A stretch of 32,171 nt of DNA from Candidatus Bathyarchaeota archaeon (GTDB lineage Archaea > Thermoproteota > Bathyarchaeia > TCS64). The stretch covers positions 1-32,171 of the forward strand of contig JAGTRB010000018.1 in assembly GCA_018396865.1 (NCBI GenBank), written 5' to 3'. Below the pieces are notes generated by a model. It saw nothing but the letters and a program-made list of their open reading frames with translations, did not search any database and was not told where the DNA came from. Shown piece after piece: positions 11,291 through 32,171 of this stretch; positions within the stretch are counted from its first letter, which is position 1; each line of letters begins with the position of its first letter. A program made the position numbers and the translations under genes.

Positions 11291-12622
11291 TTAGATTGGA
11301 GCATCCGGCAGTGAACTTACCTTTTTAGGCTCTATAGCGAAATGCACATTTTCTTCGCTTCTCAATTCTTCAATGTATTGAGTTTCTCCCAATATTCTAC
11401 AATGCCTTTCTAAGTATATTTTTTTGGCGTATATGTTCTTTGCGCTGGATCTTTCCTCCATTATTAGGAGCTCGGCGAAGATATCCTCTGCCTCAGACCC
11501 CTCCTCCAGATTGACCTCCCTCGCCACGGCAACCCCCCTTATCCTCCCCTTCCTCCCTATCCTGACCCTATCAGCCCTAGTGCCCTCGCGGGTTGAGATT
11601 CTCCCCCCCACATCCACCGATTCAGCTGCTGTCACTCGGTAGGCCTTTAAATCGCCGCCGACCTCTATAGACCCTGCCTCCACCCTTCCGTCCACCTCGG
11701 CCAATCCCCCTATATCAAGTTCCCCTGACAGTTTGAGGTGCCCATTGACTCTCAATCTTCCCCCCACGTTTATCTCATCGCCCTCGGCATCGCCGGTTAT
11801 GCTCACGGAGCCCCCCACATCTATCTCCCTGAACGTTATTCCCCCGTCAACATGCAGTCTTCCGCCGACGCTGATCTTGTCCCCCTTGCATCCTCCCGAG
11901 AGTCTAACGGTTCCACCCACATCGATAGAGCCGAAGCATAGAGGCTTGCTGGAGTTGAAGGTCCCACCGACCTTGATCCTATCCCTTACTTCTCCACCAG
12001 CTATCTCAGCCGTCCCGCCGACATCGATATCCTCTGAGATGACCTCGCCCTCGGATCTGAGCCTCCCCCCAACCCTGATCCTATCCATCTTGATCGGGCC
12101 CCTTCCATGGAAGTATCCTCCCACCTTCAGCTGGGAGCCTACTATGGATCCCTCAACCCTGACCGAGCCTCCGACGTCGACGGTTCTCGCCTCTATATCC
12201 CCAAGAGCTTCGAATGACCCGCCCACCTCTATCTCCTCAGCCCTAACTTTCCCGCCTATCCTCAGCCTTTTACCCGACTTTACGGTTAAGGAGCTCAGGT
12301 CTCTCCCAACGTCGAGCTCAAACTCGACCCTGATATCCTTGGAGGTGAGGTTACCACCCACGGATAGGGAGCCCCTCTCAACCCTGACCGACCTATCAAT
12401 GAGCATGTCACCCCTCACGGTTATCTCGCCCCCCCTCCCCCTGAGTGAAAGGGCGGAGACACTGCAGTTTAGTACGCAGTTACCCTCACAATCTATCATT
12501 CCGGAGACCACTAATCCTTGAGGGCCCTTAGCTTCAACAGTAGCGCCGTCGGCTAAGAAAAGGTCCCCCTGCACCTTATCCAAGATGGCGGTGGAGCCCG
12601 GGGGGATCCTAACTCCGCTCAT
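11291..12622 (-). CDS. Bactofilin-like polymer-forming beta-solenoid protein
   Basis: 443 residues. Almost the whole protein is a repeat of short beta segments with the recurring motif I-x-V-G-G-x-[hydrophobic] (about 15 copies, e.g. IDVGGSVSITG, IRVGGRLRSEG, IKVGGTFNSS), spaced about 18-20 residues, alternating with less regular D/E-containing turns. This is the pattern of right-handed beta-helices of the bactofilin/DUF583 group, which self-assemble into filaments without nucleotide. No signal peptide or membrane helix is seen, so it is cytosolic. At 443 residues it is 2-3 times the common bacterial bactofilin length. The last 60 residues (from EEVN-like EREVNLEEGSEAED onward) leave the regular pattern. 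A regulator follows in the same direction. Confidence 0.82.
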   Translation of the reverse strand: MSGVRIPPGSTAILDKVQGDLFLADGATVEAKGPQGLVVSGMIDCEGNCVLNCSVSALSLRGRGGEITVRGDMLIDRSVRVERGSLSVGGNLTSKDIRVEFELDVGRDLSSLTVKSGKRLRIGGKVRAEEIEVGGSFEALGDIEARTVDVGGSVRVEGSIVGSQLKVGGYFHGRGPIKMDRIRVGGRLRSEGEVISEDIDVGGTAEIAGGEVRDRIKVGGTFNSSKPLCFGSIDVGGTVRLSGGCKGDKISVGGRLHVDGGITFREIDVGGSVSITGDAEGDEINVGGRLRVNGHLKLSGELDIGGLAEVDGRVEAGSIEVGGDLKAYRVTAAESVDVGGRISTREGTRADRVRIGRKGRIRGVAVAREVNLEEGSEAEDIFAELLIMEERSSAKNIYAKKIYLERHCRILGETQYIEELRSEENVHFAIEPKKVSSLPDAPI

Positions 12623-20348: not shown

Positions 20349-21383
20349 GTGTCAAAAACGACCCTACCAAAGGGCTGGCTCCCCCTGGATGGGGACACCA
20401 TCGCAACGAGGGAGGGCTTTATATTCAACGTCTTCGGATATGAGCATCCCGAGAGCCGTGTATTCGCCTTCCTGAAGTACATCCCTTCAAAGTATAGAGA
20501 GCTCTTCAGGGTTCGCCTCCTGGGGAGAACCTGGAGGCTTGGGGAGGATGAGCTCCTCAGGGCTGAGAGGCTCTACACGGCCGAGAACTACAAGGCCTTC
20601 CTGACAACCTTCAAGGAGAATTTCCCAGATTACATCTACTACTGCCCATTTAGGATGAAAGAGGTGATCAGCGTCCCCCTAGACCGTGTAGTGGAGGTCT
20701 ACTGTCCCAGGGAGAGGCTCAGAAGCCTGTTAGAGGATGAGGCGAAGGACCCTCTCCAGAGAAGCGCCCAGGACCTGATTGAGCTGCTCTCCGAGGAGTC
20801 TAAGGTTCCCGTAGAGGATTTCGGGATCCATGGCTCCATAGCCATGAATATGCACACAGCCCAATCGGACATCGACCTAGCTGTATATGGAGGCCAGAAC
20901 TTCAGGAAGGTCGAGGCCGCTATAGATAGGCTGGCTGGAGATGGGACCCTGAACTACATCTTCAAAAACCGCCTCGATATAGCCAGGAGATACAGGGGGA
21001 GGTTTCGGGGAAGGATATTCATGTACAACGCCACCAGGAAGCCTGAGGAGATAAAATCTAGGTATGGAGAACACAGGTACATCCCCCTCTACCCCGTCAA
21101 ACTACGTTGCAGGGTCAGAGAGGACGGGGAGGCTGTCTTCCGACCCGCGACCTATGGCGTCGAGAGCATAAAGCCTCTAAACGGCTCAGCCCTCCAAAGC
21201 GGGTTGACCCCGGGGGTCGTCGTCTCCATGATGGGCTGCTATAGGAATGTGGCTAGGAGGGGCCAGGAGATAGAGGTTTCAGGGATGCTTGAGAGGGTGG
21301 AGTGCATAGAGACGGGCAGGGTTTATCATCAGGTGGTCGTGGGCTCTGCAACGAGCGAGGAGGAGTACATCTGGCCCCTCTAA
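20349..21383 (+). CDS. Nucleotidyltransferase-domain protein, first tandem copy
   Basis: 344 residues, GTG start about 25 nt after a TATA-like TTTTTTAAGAG, so leaderless. The N-terminal domain (residues about 10-115) starts DTIATREGFIFNVFGYEHP. The Pol-beta-type nucleotidyltransferase core is at about residues 150-215: DFGIHGSIAMNMHTAQSDID with the GS motif and the DxD metal ligands (SDIDLAVYGG). The C-terminal region (about 225-344) is mainly beta. This three-part layout is a known archaeal family of unassigned function; minimal nucleotidyltransferases usually transfer AMP or other NMPs to RNA or protein. The next gene is a diverged paralogue. Confidence 0.8.
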   Translation: MSKTTLPKGWLPLDGDTIATREGFIFNVFGYEHPESRVFAFLKYIPSKYRELFRVRLLGRTWRLGEDELLRAERLYTAENYKAFLTTFKENFPDYIYYCPFRMKEVISVPLDRVVEVYCPRERLRSLLEDEAKDPLQRSAQDLIELLSEESKVPVEDFGIHGSIAMNMHTAQSDIDLAVYGGQNFRKVEAAIDRLAGDGTLNYIFKNRLDIARRYRGRFRGRIFMYNATRKPEEIKSRYGEHRYIPLYPVKLRCRVREDGEAVFRPATYGVESIKPLNGSALQSGLTPGVVVSMMGCYRNVARRGQEIEVSGMLERVECIETGRVYHQVVVGSATSEEEYIWPL

Positions 21384-22459
21384 GCCTCAGGGATAGGGAT
21401 GCCATCATAACCCGGGAGGGGCTTATCTTCAGGGTTCTGGGCTATACACATCCGCAGGAGGGCTACATATGCGATCTAGAGTACGCCCCGGAAGGCGTCT
21501 ACAGATCTGAGGATTCCAGGGCATATAGGACCGAGGGGGAGAGGGTCTACTACAAGTTCTATGGGGATGAGGGGTGGGGCTTCATCCAAAGGGGGTTTCC
21601 AAGGTACATGGTCTTCCTCCAGCCCCTTGGGAGAAGGGTTCTTGGGGTGAGGGGAACCGACATCGGAGGGGTGAAGAGGCCTGAGGAGGCCCTGAGAAAA
21701 CTCCTAGAATGCGGATCCAAAGACGAGCTAACAGGAGCTCTTGAGAGGTTGATGGAGATCGTTATTGAGGGCTCGGCCATATCAGCCCAGGAGTTCGGGG
21801 TCTTCGGCTCAATCCTCCACGGCTTCTACAACCCAAGATTATCGGACCTAGATATGGTCGTGTATGGGAGGGGGACTCTGGAAAGGTTGAGAGAACTCCT
21901 TCGGGAGCTGTATATGGGTGGAGGATCGAGGCTCTCAAACGAGTTTGAGAAGGATGAATCTGTGGCTGGGAAGAATTGGCGCTTCAGAAACATAACTCCA
22001 AAAGAGTTTGTATGGCATCAAAGGAGAAAGATGATCTATGGGATATTCCACGATGAAAATGCTGGAAGGGATATAAAGTTTGAATTTGAACCAGTTAAAC
22101 TGTTCAGCGAGATAAAAAATGAGTATAATGAATTAAGGAGGGTAAAATGGGATGGGTGGGTTAGAGCCCTTCTAAGGGTTAGGGACGACTCAGAGGGCCC
22201 CTACATGCCCTCAGTATACCATGTCGAACCCTTGGAGATATTGGAAGGTCCTGAGGTCGATGATGTTGAGAAGGTGGTCTCCTACCTAGAGGAGTTCAGA
22301 ATGCAGGCCTGGAGGGATGAGGTCATATATGTGGAGGGGAACCTCGAATGGGTCGAGACGCGAGGAGGGGAATATCACCAGATTACACTAACCTATGGAC
22401 CCAGATATTATGAACAGGTCATCAAACTAGCCGAGATGGGAGCTTCCCAGACTGATTAA
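21302..22459 (+). CDS. Nucleotidyltransferase-domain protein, second tandem copy
   Basis: Paralogue of the preceding gene with the same layout: AIITREGLIFRVLGYTHP at the N-terminus, FGVFGSILHGFYNPRLSDLD plus MVVYGRG at the nucleotidyltransferase core (GS and DxD kept), and IKFEFEPVKLF in the C-terminal part. Similarity to copy 1 begins only near base 21374, at the stop codon of copy 1. The only standard start upstream is GTG at 21302, giving 385 residues and an 82-base overlap; a CTG at about 21371 is the alternative. Two paralogues fused this tightly suggest tandem duplication and a joint or heterodimeric role. Confidence 0.75.
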   Translation: MHRDGQGLSSGGRGLCNERGGVHLAPLSLRDRDAIITREGLIFRVLGYTHPQEGYICDLEYAPEGVYRSEDSRAYRTEGERVYYKFYGDEGWGFIQRGFPRYMVFLQPLGRRVLGVRGTDIGGVKRPEEALRKLLECGSKDELTGALERLMEIVIEGSAISAQEFGVFGSILHGFYNPRLSDLDMVVYGRGTLERLRELLRELYMGGGSRLSNEFEKDESVAGKNWRFRNITPKEFVWHQRRKMIYGIFHDENAGRDIKFEFEPVKLFSEIKNEYNELRRVKWDGWVRALLRVRDDSEGPYMPSVYHVEPLEILEGPEVDDVEKVVSYLEEFRMQAWRDEVIYVEGNLEWVETRGGEYHQITLTYGPRYYEQVIKLAEMGASQTD

Positions 22460-22636: not shown

Positions 22637-22885
22637 GTGGGAATGTCTATAGTAGAGGTGGATGAGAAGTATCGCATAACCCTGCCGAAGGAGGTGCGAA
22701 GGTCCCTAGTCCCGCTGAAGGGCAGGAAAGCCTATATTGTCGGAGCCGGCGACGTCGTGGTGGTGAGGATCCTCGCCTCAGACCCCTCGGAGGCCCTAAG
22801 GGAGATACTCGGGGACTTCACCTTCGACAGGAGGAGTAGGGAGGAGGCGGAGAGGTGGCTGCTGGAGCAGGTGAGGAGTACCTAG
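22637..22885 (+). CDS. vapB: AbrB/SpoVT-type antitoxin
   Basis: 82 residues from GTG 22637 (or 80 from ATG 22643). The swapped-hairpin DNA-binding motif SIVEVDEKYRITLPKEVRRS is at the N-terminus, followed by KAYIVGAGDVVVVRILASDP. The acidic/basic helix DRRSREEAERWLLEQV is the toxin-binding tail. It overlaps the PIN gene by 31 bases, as in standard VapBC pairs. Confidence 0.88.
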   Translation: MGMSIVEVDEKYRITLPKEVRRSLVPLKGRKAYIVGAGDVVVVRILASDPSEALREILGDFTFDRRSREEAERWLLEQVRST

Positions 22886-23301
22886 TAGAGACGGACTTCC
22901 TGTTTGGCCTCAGGGCTGGAGACCGTAACTTCGAGGCCGTTGTTGGAGCGCTGAGAAGATGTAAGAGCGGAGCCATCAAGCTCTCGGTCCCCTCATCCTC
23001 GGTGGTTGAAGCGAGGGCTGTATTGTACTCAAAGGGCCTAAAGCCCAATGAGGTTGAAGTGGCGCTAGGGCTGATGGGCGCCAAGCTCGCGGAGAACGAC
23101 GTCATGGACTTCATCCAGATCGAGCTTGCTGACGCGGTCTATGCTGAGAGGCTCAGGATCGAGAACCCAAACCTCGGCTTCTTCGACTCCCTCCACGCGG
23201 CCGCTGCGGCGAGGAGGGGGAAACTCCTGCTGACCTCTAACAAGGCTTACAAAGGGATAACAAGCCTCAAGGTCAGGGATCTCAGCGATTTTATTCCTTA
23301 G
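22855..23301 (+). CDS. vapC: VapC-type PIN-domain toxin
   Basis: 148 residues from GTG 22855. The PIN motifs are Asp14 in YLVETDFLFGL, Glu52 in SSSVVEARAVL and Asp111 in GFFDSLHAAAAA. The last acidic position is weak: the segment LLLTSNKAYKGIT has Asn129 where an Asp is usual. Activity may therefore be reduced, though some PIN proteins tolerate this. It follows the AbrB antitoxin with an overlap. Confidence 0.85.
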   Translation: MAAGAGEEYLVETDFLFGLRAGDRNFEAVVGALRRCKSGAIKLSVPSSSVVEARAVLYSKGLKPNEVEVALGLMGAKLAENDVMDFIQIELADAVYAERLRIENPNLGFFDSLHAAAAARRGKLLLTSNKAYKGITSLKVRDLSDFIP

Positions 23302-24597: not shown

Positions 24598-25011
24598 ATG
24601 GAGGGCCAGGCTGGTCGAGTGGTGGTGTTCGACGCTTATGCATGGTGTGAGTATGTAGTAGATGGACCTCACGCCGAGACCGTCGCTCAAGCCCTGCAAT
24701 CCGCTTATCAAGCCCTGACCCCAGCCTCAGCACTGGCAGAGGTTAGGGAAGCTCTAGAGAGGCATCAAGTTGAGCCCAGTGTAATCAAGGATATAATGGA
24801 GTTTATCAGGGCTAGAAGCCAAGTGGTGAACATAGATGTCGATGTGGCAGAGAAGGCTGGAGAGGTTAACTTTCAGATGAAGAAGAGGGCCAAGGGCTGG
24901 GGTATGCTCGATTCCTTTGTCTACGCTGTGGCCCTCTTAAAAAAGGGGTGGGTTTTAACAGGTGACACCCACTTCAGGGATTTAGCCAACGTCATCTACA
25001 TCGGAGAGTGA
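24598..25011 (+). CDS. vapC: VapC-type PIN-domain toxin
   Basis: 137 residues, ATG with AAAAGGTGA just upstream. PIN residues: Asp12 in VVVFDAYAWCEY, Glu48 in SALAEVREAL, Asp105 in GWGMLDSFVYAVAL, Asp123 in VLTGDTHFRDL. All four are kept. Directly follows its AbrB antitoxin. Confidence 0.9.
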   Translation: MEGQAGRVVVFDAYAWCEYVVDGPHAETVAQALQSAYQALTPASALAEVREALERHQVEPSVIKDIMEFIRARSQVVNIDVDVAEKAGEVNFQMKKRAKGWGMLDSFVYAVALLKKGWVLTGDTHFRDLANVIYIGE

Positions 25012-27575: not shown

Positions 27576-27845
27576 ATGGTTGAGCGGAGTGTTGTCATAC
27601 CTGCGGTGAGGATCCCCCGCGAACTCTGGCTCTACTTGGAGGAGATTATGAAGAGGAAGATGTTCTCCTCTAAGGCTGAGCTTGTGAAGGATGCTCTAAG
27701 GGAGTATGTCGCCCGGAACCGGGAACTCCTACACGACTTTGAGATCCTCTCCGCGACCGTCGAGCTCAAGAAGGGGAGGCTTGAGGATGAGGAGAGGGAG
27801 AGAAGGTTGCTCGAGTGGCTTAGGGAGCTACGCTCTGGACACTAG
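27576..27845 (+). CDS. vapB: Ribbon-helix-helix antitoxin
   Basis: 89 residues. SVVIPAVRIPRELWLYLEEI gives the strand and first helix; MFSSKAELVKDALREYVARN the second helix with the RHH turn. The tail contains a long charged helix (KKGRLEDEERERRLLEWLRE). It overlaps the toxin frame by about 59 bases. Confidence 0.85.
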   Translation: MVERSVVIPAVRIPRELWLYLEEIMKRKMFSSKAELVKDALREYVARNRELLHDFEILSATVELKKGRLEDEERERRLLEWLRELRSGH

Positions 27846-28215
27846 TGTCCTCCTCCATCATCGCTACGCGCCGAGCGATTTGACCGAGGCTCTGATAAGT
27901 TCGGGCATCATCAACCTTGTCACCCTATCCGAGGTCCTCTACATCGTATGCAGGGGCGAGGATTCCTCCAAGGCTCTCTCATATGTGGAAGAGCTGGCTG
28001 AGAAGGGCAGGCTGGCTCCTTCTGAGAGGGTGGCCCCGGTGGCTGGACAGTTCAAGTGCCGCTTCCCAGTCTCGTTGGCTGACGCCTGGGTTCTCGCCAC
28101 GGGTAAGGTTATGGCTCTCCCCTGCCTCTTCGCCCATAGGGAGAGGGAGCTCGTCTCGCATATCACAGCTATTGGCAGGGAGGTGGAGGTGCGCTTTCTC
28201 GACGAACTCCTCTGA
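27787..28215 (+). CDS. vapC: VapC-type PIN-domain toxin
   Basis: 142 residues from ATG 27787, inside the antitoxin frame (an earlier in-frame ATG at 27706 would give 169 residues). PIN motifs: Asp in SYALDTSVLLHH, Glu in VTLSEVLYIVCR, Asp in PVSLADAWVLATG. The fourth position reads LFAHRERELVS, with His/Glu where Asp is usual. The start is uncertain; the PIN fold begins only at residue about 14 of this call. Confidence 0.82.
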   Translation: MRRGREGCSSGLGSYALDTSVLLHHRYAPSDLTEALISSGIINLVTLSEVLYIVCRGEDSSKALSYVEELAEKGRLAPSERVAPVAGQFKCRFPVSLADAWVLATGKVMALPCLFAHRERELVSHITAIGREVEVRFLDELL

Positions 28216-29655: not shown

Positions 29656-31737
29656 GTGAAGTTGAAGTCAAGGGTTATCCTTTTGGGAGCGGTCTTTCTA
29701 GCCTTGATTCTCTCCTCTCCCAGTCCTGTTTGGATGGTGGGTTGCCAGGTGGCTGAGCCTTTGAGGCTGAAGGTTTTTGTTGGTCCCCCAAAGGTTCCCG
29801 CTGATAACAGTGTCCACGAGATCATCTATATCCAGCTTCAGGATTCTAAGGGGAGGCCTGCTAGGGCTCCTGAGGATGTTTTGGTTCATCTCTCTTCCTC
29901 CGCATCTCACGTCGGCTCTGTTGAGGCTGAGGTCACCATACCTAAGGGTCATAATTATGCTGTCGCCAAGTTTCATACCACTTATACTCCTGGTTCTACG
30001 GTGATCACGGCTGCCGCTCTGGGTTATGTGACGGGGCAGGCGACCATGACCACCACCGGTCCGGTCCCTGTTAAGCTGGTTGTCTATGCCTCTCCCGCGG
30101 TTCTTCCCCCTGACGGTGGGGTCTATGAGGCTATTGTGGTTCAGCTCCAGGATGAGGGTGGCACTCCGGCTAGGGCTCCTCTTGGGGATGTATGGGTCAC
30201 CCTCTCATCCTCGAATACGACGGTGGGCTCCTGCCCTTCGATGGTGGTGATCAGGGCTGGGGAGACCTTCACAAGGGTCCCCTTCTATGCTGGGTTGTCT
30301 CCTGGGACGACGGTGATTACGGCGATGGCCTCCGGCTATGCTTCTGGTCAGGCTACTGTGAAGACTGAGGCTTCGGAGGATGAGCCTAAGGCCTTGAAGG
30401 TTTTCACTGCTCCCCTCAAGGTTCCTGCTGAGGGAGCTGCTTATGAAGCCATCATGGTCCAGCTCCAGGATGCCAGGGGGAGGCCTGTTAAGGCGTCTCT
30501 GGATATCAGGGTTGACCTCTCCTCCTCCAACCTCCAGGTTGGGGGGGTGGATGCGAGTGTGGTGATCTATGGGGGGAGGTCCTGCGCATTGGCCAGGTTC
30601 ATCTCAACCTTCAGGGCGGGAAGCACAACGATAACCGCGGCCTCCATGGGCTATATGAGCGGCCAGGCCTCCATCACGACGGTCGGGCCGATCCCCTCGA
30701 AGCTTACGGTCTACCCTGCCTTGCCAGGACTTCCGGCTGATGGGAACTCCTCCAACATCATCGTCGTCCAGCTCCAAGATGCAGGCGGCTCCCCGGCTAG
30801 GGATCCTGAGGGGTTGGTCCAGGTTGACCTCTTCTCCAGCCAGAGCGAGGTCGGCTGGGTTACCCAGAGGGTCTACATCCCCTATGGGGGGACCTACGCC
30901 ACCGCTACCTTCAACTCCACATATACCCCTGGAACCACATCCATAACCGCCATCTCAGCTGGGTACTCCTCGGGTCAGGCCTCCTTGACCACCCACCTGA
31001 TAGACCTCTTCTCATTAAAGCTCAACCTCACCGTCGAGCCTTCTATGGTTAATGCGAGTGACAAGGTGAATGTGAGGGTTTATGTCTCCTATGAGGGGAG
31101 GCTCCCGGCTAAGGGGGCTACTGTGACCCTAGCCTCAAGCCATGGCGGCAGCTTCACGAAGGTTGTTGAGGAGGGTAATGGGTACTACACCTCTACCTAC
31201 ACGGCCCCCAACGTGCTCCAGAAGACCACATGCAGGATAACGGCGAATGCGACTAAGAAGGGATACCTCGATGGTAATGGAACTGTGGAGGTGGTGGTGA
31301 ACCCCGTCTTCTATAAGGGGAGCCTGACTATCCATGTCGCGGACACGGATAACAACCCCCTAGCCGGAGCGGTTGTGGCCTCCTTGACCCAGCCTCCAGG
31401 ACAGCAACCCTTGAAAGGTACGACGGATGAGAAGGGGCGGGTCACCTTCACCGACATAATAGCCGGAGCCTACAGGTTCCAAGTGAACATGACGGGCTTC
31501 GACCCACAGGAGGCGGAGTTCACCGTGAGGGCTGGAGGCTCCCTCTCGGCCACGGTCAACCTCCCCAGGCCCCCATCCCCCCTCCAAACCCTCATGACCT
31601 TCCCCTACATCCTGATCCCCATAGGCGCAGCCGCCGGGGCTGGGGCGGTGATCATCCTCCTCTGGAGGCGTAGAAGAGCCAAGGAGGTCCCTGAAACCCC
31701 TGAAGAGGAAAAGGAGGAAGAGGAGGAGTTTCTCTAG
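29656..31737 (+). CDS. Large cell-surface protein with Ig-like repeats and C-terminal membrane anchor
   Basis: 693 residues, GTG start with AGGAG about 12 bases upstream. Signal peptide at residues about 5-28 (VILLGAVFLALILSSPSPVW). Four Ig-like repeats of about 100-105 residues follow at about 36-134, 139-237, 246-343 and 349-446, each opening with K/V-x-PADG-x-x-Y/HEIIV-x-QLQD and closing G-Y-x-x-GQA-x-x-TT. Then a different Ig-like domain (about 455-550, with TLASSHGGSFTKV), a carboxypeptidase-regulatory-like domain (about 556-635, GAVVASLTQPPG, GRVTFTDIIAGAYRFQVN), one membrane helix (650-670) and an acidic tail. Several Asn-x-Ser/Thr sites suggest glycosylation. Likely an S-layer-associated or adhesion protein; it precedes a pilin gene. 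Confidence 0.88.
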   Translation: MKLKSRVILLGAVFLALILSSPSPVWMVGCQVAEPLRLKVFVGPPKVPADNSVHEIIYIQLQDSKGRPARAPEDVLVHLSSSASHVGSVEAEVTIPKGHNYAVAKFHTTYTPGSTVITAAALGYVTGQATMTTTGPVPVKLVVYASPAVLPPDGGVYEAIVVQLQDEGGTPARAPLGDVWVTLSSSNTTVGSCPSMVVIRAGETFTRVPFYAGLSPGTTVITAMASGYASGQATVKTEASEDEPKALKVFTAPLKVPAEGAAYEAIMVQLQDARGRPVKASLDIRVDLSSSNLQVGGVDASVVIYGGRSCALARFISTFRAGSTTITAASMGYMSGQASITTVGPIPSKLTVYPALPGLPADGNSSNIIVVQLQDAGGSPARDPEGLVQVDLFSSQSEVGWVTQRVYIPYGGTYATATFNSTYTPGTTSITAISAGYSSGQASLTTHLIDLFSLKLNLTVEPSMVNASDKVNVRVYVSYEGRLPAKGATVTLASSHGGSFTKVVEEGNGYYTSTYTAPNVLQKTTCRITANATKKGYLDGNGTVEVVVNPVFYKGSLTIHVADTDNNPLAGAVVASLTQPPGQQPLKGTTDEKGRVTFTDIIAGAYRFQVNMTGFDPQEAEFTVRAGGSLSATVNLPRPPSPLQTLMTFPYILIPIGAAAGAGAVIILLWRRRRAKEVPETPEEEKEEEEEFL

Positions 31738-31897
31738 AAGCCTTAATCCTGAGCTGCGAAGTTGGAATGGATTTTGGGAGCTGATTGATAGGTTGGATTT
31801 TGGAATTGGGATCGGTGTCTATCTATAACCTTCAATTAATAATAAATCATTTGATCGATAACAATCTTCTTTAACAAGGCTCCTTAACAAATCAGAA

Positions 31898-31936
31898 ATC
31901 TTTATCTATATCATAAATACAATTTACATATAAATG
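31898..31936 (+). promoter_or_regulatory. Promoter region of the pilin gene
   Basis: AGAAATCTTTATCTATATC at 31894-31912 is a BRE/TATA candidate with start near 31932; a second AT-rich candidate, TTACATATAAATG at 31924-31936, would start near 31957. Only the first leaves the downstream hairpin intact in the mRNA. The preceding bases 31738-31893 hold nothing else I can support. Confidence 0.4.
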
Positions 31937-31949
31937 GGAAATGAGGCCA

Positions 31950-31974
31950 TTCCCCATTGGAGGTGAATGGGGAA
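31950..31974 (+). promoter_or_regulatory. RNA hairpin holding the Shine-Dalgarno of the pilin gene
   Basis: TTCCCCATT (31950-31958) and AATGGGGAA (31966-31974) are perfect 9-bp arms around the 7-base loop GGAGGTG. The loop is a near-ideal anti-16S sequence and the TTG start follows at 31977. A stem of nine pairs, including four G-C pairs, could hide or expose the site. Confidence 0.6.
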
Positions 31975-31976
31975 AA

Positions 31977-32171
31977 TTGGGGATTAGGGATAGGAGGGGT
32001 GTCAGCCCGGTCATCGCAACCATCATAATCGTCGCCATCGCCATAGTCATGGCCCTAGCAGTCGCCTACTGGATGCTCGGACTAGGAGGAGCCTTCACAA
32101 GATTCGAAAAACTAGAATTCCAAAGTGCATACGTCACGACAGAAACAACTAGCACTAATAACGAGATTTTC
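31977..32171 (+). CDS. Archaeal type IV pilin-like protein, 5' part (runs off the window)
   Basis: Class III signal peptide pattern: short charged head MGIRDRRG, then VSPVIATIIIVAIAIVMALA as the hydrophobic helix (pilin_N, PF07790-like). Cleavage by the PibD/FlaK peptidase would follow RRG. The mature part reads VAYWMLGLGGAFTRFEKLEF and is cut by the window end. The TTG at 31977 gives the expected short head; an in-frame ATG at 31941 would add 12 residues and encode through the hairpin. Such pilins serve surface adhesion or assemble into pili. The neighbouring Ig-repeat surface protein fits an envelope locus. Confidence 0.85.
   Translation, partial: MGIRDRRGVSPVIATIIIVAIAIVMALAVAYWMLGLGGAFTRFEKLEFQSAYVTTETTSTNNEIF

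Follow-up and report, generated by a model that had tools for sequence, protein, structure and literature searches.

The leader of a type IV pilin gene at the end of the window (i.e., the whole stretch of DNA that was analysed, 32,171 nucleotides long) can fold into a perfect 9-bp hairpin that holds the ribosome-binding site in its loop, and this hairpin is, with a probability of about one in two, peculiar to one gene copy, having arisen by small insertions in an ordinary pilin leader and having at most a modest effect on translation. The view that it is a dedicated temperature switch is not supported by the calculated folding. Cis-acting RNA switches described from archaea are, to our knowledge, few, and a switch at this place, if true, would offer a simple means to choose among pilin paralogs; the evidence at present favours the copy-specific hairpin, the role of which is putative.

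The preliminary description of this leader had proposed 9-bp perfect arms, the loop GGAGGTG and a TTG start at 31977, and all of these agree with the sequence (Table 1): the right arm is followed by AA and then by the TTG (31977-31979), so that the stem ends 2 nt before the start. The ribosome-binding site that was placed in the loop is a full one, since the 16S gene of this genome has the 3′ end GGATCACCTCCTTA, which is complementary to GGAGGTGA. The gene had also been named correctly: its product has the class III signal peptide and the hydrophobic N-terminus of archaeal type IV pilins and matches Pilin_N (PF07790) in a profile search with 27.5 bits against a cut-off of 25.2. As the window is an entire contig (C18), the gene runs off its end and is incomplete. 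The TTG aligns with the GTG or ATG of homologues; the pilin might instead begin at an in-frame ATG at 31941, in which case the hairpin would be part of the coding sequence, and an ATG at 31934 could serve as the start of a frame of 10 codons with its stop inside the ribosome site. The order of Ig-like protein and pilin is common to the window, to contig C36 of the same genome and to genome G001, and on contig C19 only the C-terminal part of the Ig-like protein is present before the pilin. 3′ of the C19 pilin there are genes whose products, judged from sequence rather than by profile, resemble a secretion ATPase and a TadC-type platform protein.

Table 1. Features of the pilin leader and its surroundings in the window.
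Feature	Positions	Strand	Sequence	Basis and remarks
Ig-like repeat surface protein, 693 aa, upstream of pilin	29656-31737	+		Pfam Invasin_D3 and CarboxypepD_reg; homologues and gene order
Candidate promoter 1, TATA-like	31896-31911	+	AAATCTTTATCTATAT	Motif score 5.2 at 31896; shares ATCTATAT with paralogs
Candidate promoter 2	31919-31935	+	ACAATTTACATATAAAT	Placed, relative to the signal peptide, where the TATA element of 19 related pilins usually lies
Segment 1, alternative partner of left arm	31933-31943	+	AATGGGAAATG	10 of 11 bases complementary (repeat search)
Left arm	31950-31958	+	TTCCCCATT	Read from sequence; with 31948-31949 forms segment 2
Loop	31959-31965	+	GGAGGTG	Read from sequence; conserved in genus homologues
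Ribosome-binding site	31959-31966	+	GGAGGTGA	Complementary to own 16S 3′ end; first 7 nt are the loop
Right arm (segment 3)	31966-31974	+	AATGGGGAA	Read from sequence; lies in the 6-nt insertion relative to paralogs plus flanking bases (alignment)
Pilin gene from TTG, truncated by contig end	31977-32171	+		Pilin_N; homologues start at aligned GTG or ATG

A mutational origin confined to this copy is argued for, in the first place, by the comparison of leaders. Two further pilins of the same type are encoded in the genome (on C36 and C19) and homologues are found in G001 and G002 of the same genus (the homologues named in records are deposited mainly as Candidatus Bathyarchaeota); in the leader alignment both arms are absent from all four, which retain GGAGGTG 4-5 nt before GTG or ATG. 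The same origin is indicated by two AATGGG-like insertions in the window copy, one of 6 nt between the ribosome site and the start, and one of 8 nt upstream. The latter is less certain, and it speaks against the mutational reading that this insertion rests on a poorly alignable stretch. The spacer from GGAGG to the start codon is 13 nt in the window copy versus 7 nt in the paralogs, which is atypical, given the modal spacing of 7-9 nt at strong ribosome sites of the genome, and this also points to a copy-specific change, as does the fact that the arm pair CCCCATT..AATGGGG, searched for as the mark of a regulon, is found at one place only in three genomes of the genus and the pairing of segments 1 and 2 likewise. 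An ordinary leader with a ribosome-binding site would have gained AATGGG-type insertions in one gene copy and with them the hairpin, the stem of which would set the ribosome site in a loop and fill the unusually long spacer. If the whole stem is transcribed, it would most likely merely lower initiation on the window paralog, an effect that would be constant and modest at most.

The arms had been expected not to vary without compensation if they control translation. Such uncompensated variation is seen in the two paralogs and the two same-genus homologues, which lack both arms and show none of the compensatory changes of a conserved cis-regulatory RNA, and none of the four is a proven orthologue of the window copy; by DNA search, homology in relatives starts only at the ribosome site or later. 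The pilin gene differs from the two paralogs by dS of 0.56-0.84 and dN of 0.05-0.07, and owing to this strong divergence the missing hairpin in the paralogs is a stronger argument against a trait of the family than against a function in the window copy. With dN far below dS the gene is under purifying selection, which speaks against the mutational reading; decay of the gene was considered and rejected, since the frame is open and dN so low.

How unusual is such a stem? Hairpins with arms of at least 9 bp and loops of 3-10 nt are common, as 34 were counted in a 442-kb sample of the genome, on which all genome statistics are based, versus 22.5 in Markov sequence, and two lie within the window. 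Stems around the ribosome sites of 65 other genes of the genome have 1-6 bp, and those in other pilin leaders tested have 1-7 bp, so that none of the other ribosome sites examined has a stem as long as that in the window, which stands against a purely mutational reading. The per-gene probability of a 9-bp stem that encloses the ribosome site was about 2e-4 with generic flanks and 5e-5 with shuffled flanks, and it rose to 0.014 with flanks drawn from a local Markov model, which preserves their G and C runs. By our arithmetic, chance is expected to give roughly 0.1-0.3 genes with such a stem per genome, and therefore a single case in a large scan is no proof of function.

The hairpin had been taken as a translational control of pilin synthesis, i.e., a thermometer or a protein-binding switch. 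What stands of this claim is the anatomy, since a stem that ends 2 nt 5′ of the start and holds the ribosome site in its loop could affect translation. In the ROSE and fourU RNA thermometers the ribosome site is part of a helix that opens near growth temperature; the window shares with them a hairpin at the ribosome site near the start, but here it is the loop that contains the site, and the stem is predicted to persist. The nearest-neighbour model gives -12.4 kcal/mol at 37 °C and -5.4 kcal/mol at 70 °C for the hairpin, which in the context of the leader is extended by three extra pairs to the start codon. Neither the ribosome site nor the start codon is sequestered by pairing in this model, in which the site is mostly unpaired and the start codon is partly paired (about 0.6-0.7). 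The probability of the stem shifts merely from 0.99 at 60 °C through 0.97 at 70 °C to 0.93 at 80 °C, and no melting is predicted across 57-83 °C, which adds to the case for the copy-specific reading. The QZM and JZ samples, which contain relatives, come from hot springs of 56.9-83 °C according to their paper. A hairpin that melts at growth temperature and thereby permits pilin synthesis would suit such habitats and the position at the ribosome site; with an exposed site and a stem 93-97% formed at 70-80 °C it is highly improbable, and the regulatory interpretation of the preliminary description is, overall, weakly supported.

The left arm has a further possible partner that the preliminary description did not mention, since it can pair with 31933-31943 at 10 of 11 bases. 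This third segment was found after the fact and is treated as a lead, which may reflect either a bistable switch or small repeated insertions. Pairing of segments 1 and 2 (-10.1 kcal/mol) and of segments 2 and 3 (-13.1 to -15.4 kcal/mol) is mutually exclusive at 37 °C, and in modelled growing transcripts the former is favoured until 31970 and the latter from 31972. In a bistable translational switch, RNA would begin at about 31932, segment 1 would pair first with segment 2 and leave the ribosome site free, and segment 2 would later pair with segment 3 and enclose the site and spacer, with the choice of state left to a protein, a ligand or the speed of transcription. The order of folding suits this design, and so does candidate promoter 1, which would start the RNA at segment 1. 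Two exclusive helices, of which a riboswitch-like leader would need one to affect the ribosome site, can be drawn, and they are rare by a strict count: an alternative 10/11 partner was found for no other hairpin of the 442-kb sample and for none of 409 Markov hairpins (p 4e-5 with local composition), a coincidence that speaks against a purely mutational reading. With a less strict count of contiguous stems, in which G-U pairs are allowed, p is only 0.09. Moreover, segments 2 and 3 win at equilibrium at every temperature from 25 to 80 °C, the arrangement is absent in the paralogs, was noticed post hoc and comes without a known ligand or protein, so that a bistable switch is unlikely.

Whether the complete stem is present in the RNA depends on the transcription start. 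Transcription in archaea starts about 26 bp from the TATA centre, a general offset, rather than one measured here, that was used for the predicted 5′ ends. Candidate promoter 1 would yield an RNA from near 31932, at segment 1, and candidate promoter 2 one from near 31956, inside the left arm; the former ranks better by the motif derived from the genome sample, the latter by distance in 19 relatives. A promoter model based on tRNA genes was dropped, as the sample holds too few of them. An RNA start downstream of 31950, which had been named as an event that would remove one arm, is therefore predicted by candidate promoter 2 and not by candidate promoter 1. If transcription starts within the left arm, the RNA hairpin never forms and the pilin has an ordinary short leader of about 20 nt; in an RNA from 31955 no more than 4 bp of the stem are left (-0.9 kcal/mol). 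In most of the 19 relatives the TATA element is spaced from the signal peptide just as candidate promoter 2 is, which makes this alternative a tenable one, yet candidate promoter 1 has the better motif score and has ATCTATAT in common with the paralogs, and such a start is on balance doubtful. A promoter element, CATAATCCATTTATTAA, is strongly shared upstream of pilins among the 19 relatives (e.g., leaders L010, L012 and L018) and in exact form is absent from the window's genus.

The repeat may also act as DNA. Two or three half-sites AATGGGGAA would straddle the transcription start, a bound regulator would block transcription and the RNA hairpin would be a by-product. The perfect 25-bp inverted repeat adjoins both predicted starts, a further half-site lies at 31933 (spacings 17 and 16 bp), and the predicted start of the homologous pilin in two other genera likewise has an inverted repeat, though one with different arms. 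Such an operator is nevertheless rather unlikely, as the exact arms are single copy in the genome, so that no regulon is visible, and single half-site matches with one mismatch occur in the window mostly at chance level.

The repeats of those other genera weigh against a purely mutational reading. The homologous pilins of G013, in one genus of the family, and of G005, G015 and G011, in another (leaders L006, L010, L017 and L024, respectively), have an inverted repeat, TAATCC/GGATTR, that is weaker than the one in the window yet conserved and that holds the ribosome site in its loop, some 20-45 nt 5′ of the aligned pilin start. A search of these four and 252 other genomes gave the full pattern once in each of the four and nowhere else. 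Its arms are identical across the four genomes, and the loop and upstream flank vary; no compensatory change in the arms was seen among the four, and the left arm coincides with the predicted start of transcription, so that the pattern could be due to promoter constraint. As in the window, the homologous pilin is preceded by an inverted repeat whose loop contains the ribosome site, and the spacer is long, but the arms are unrelated to those in the window, of 5-7 bp and weak at 70 °C. A bistable leader that toggles one pilin paralog between a free and a loop-enclosed site, and whose design recurs with other sequence in related genera, appears quite improbable. A hairpin common to pilin leaders was rejected, as the only other long stem has 7 bp (L006) and the remaining ones have at most 5 bp. 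In L006 (~1490-1501) ACG is aligned where the g4 pilins have their GTG start, and the G013 pilin frame has no ATG, GTG or TTG before the signal peptide, which suggests either a near-cognate start or a sequence error.

A ribosome-site GGA in a hairpin loop is also found in bacterial leaders under CsrA control, including that of flagellin (hag), which like the window concerns a surface-filament gene (PMC7652899). Hairpins selected by CsrA, however, mostly have four or fewer contiguous pairs (PMC7652899), compared with nine in the window. CsrA (PF02599) had no match in the window's genome or in four relatives, where positive controls matched, and thus the protein of CsrA-type translational repression was found encoded in none of the five genomes. 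No close archaeal precedent was found among the titles and abstracts retrieved by literature searches.

Elsewhere in the window, three PIN-domain proteins, possibly toxins of toxin-antitoxin pairs, are encoded within about 6 kb (22855-23301, 24598-25011 and 27706-28215). Two adjacent, slightly overlapping frames with nucleotidyltransferase domains occupy 20349-21383 and 21302-22459, and a bactofilin-like domain protein with a weak adhesive-domain match is encoded on the minus strand at 11291-12622.
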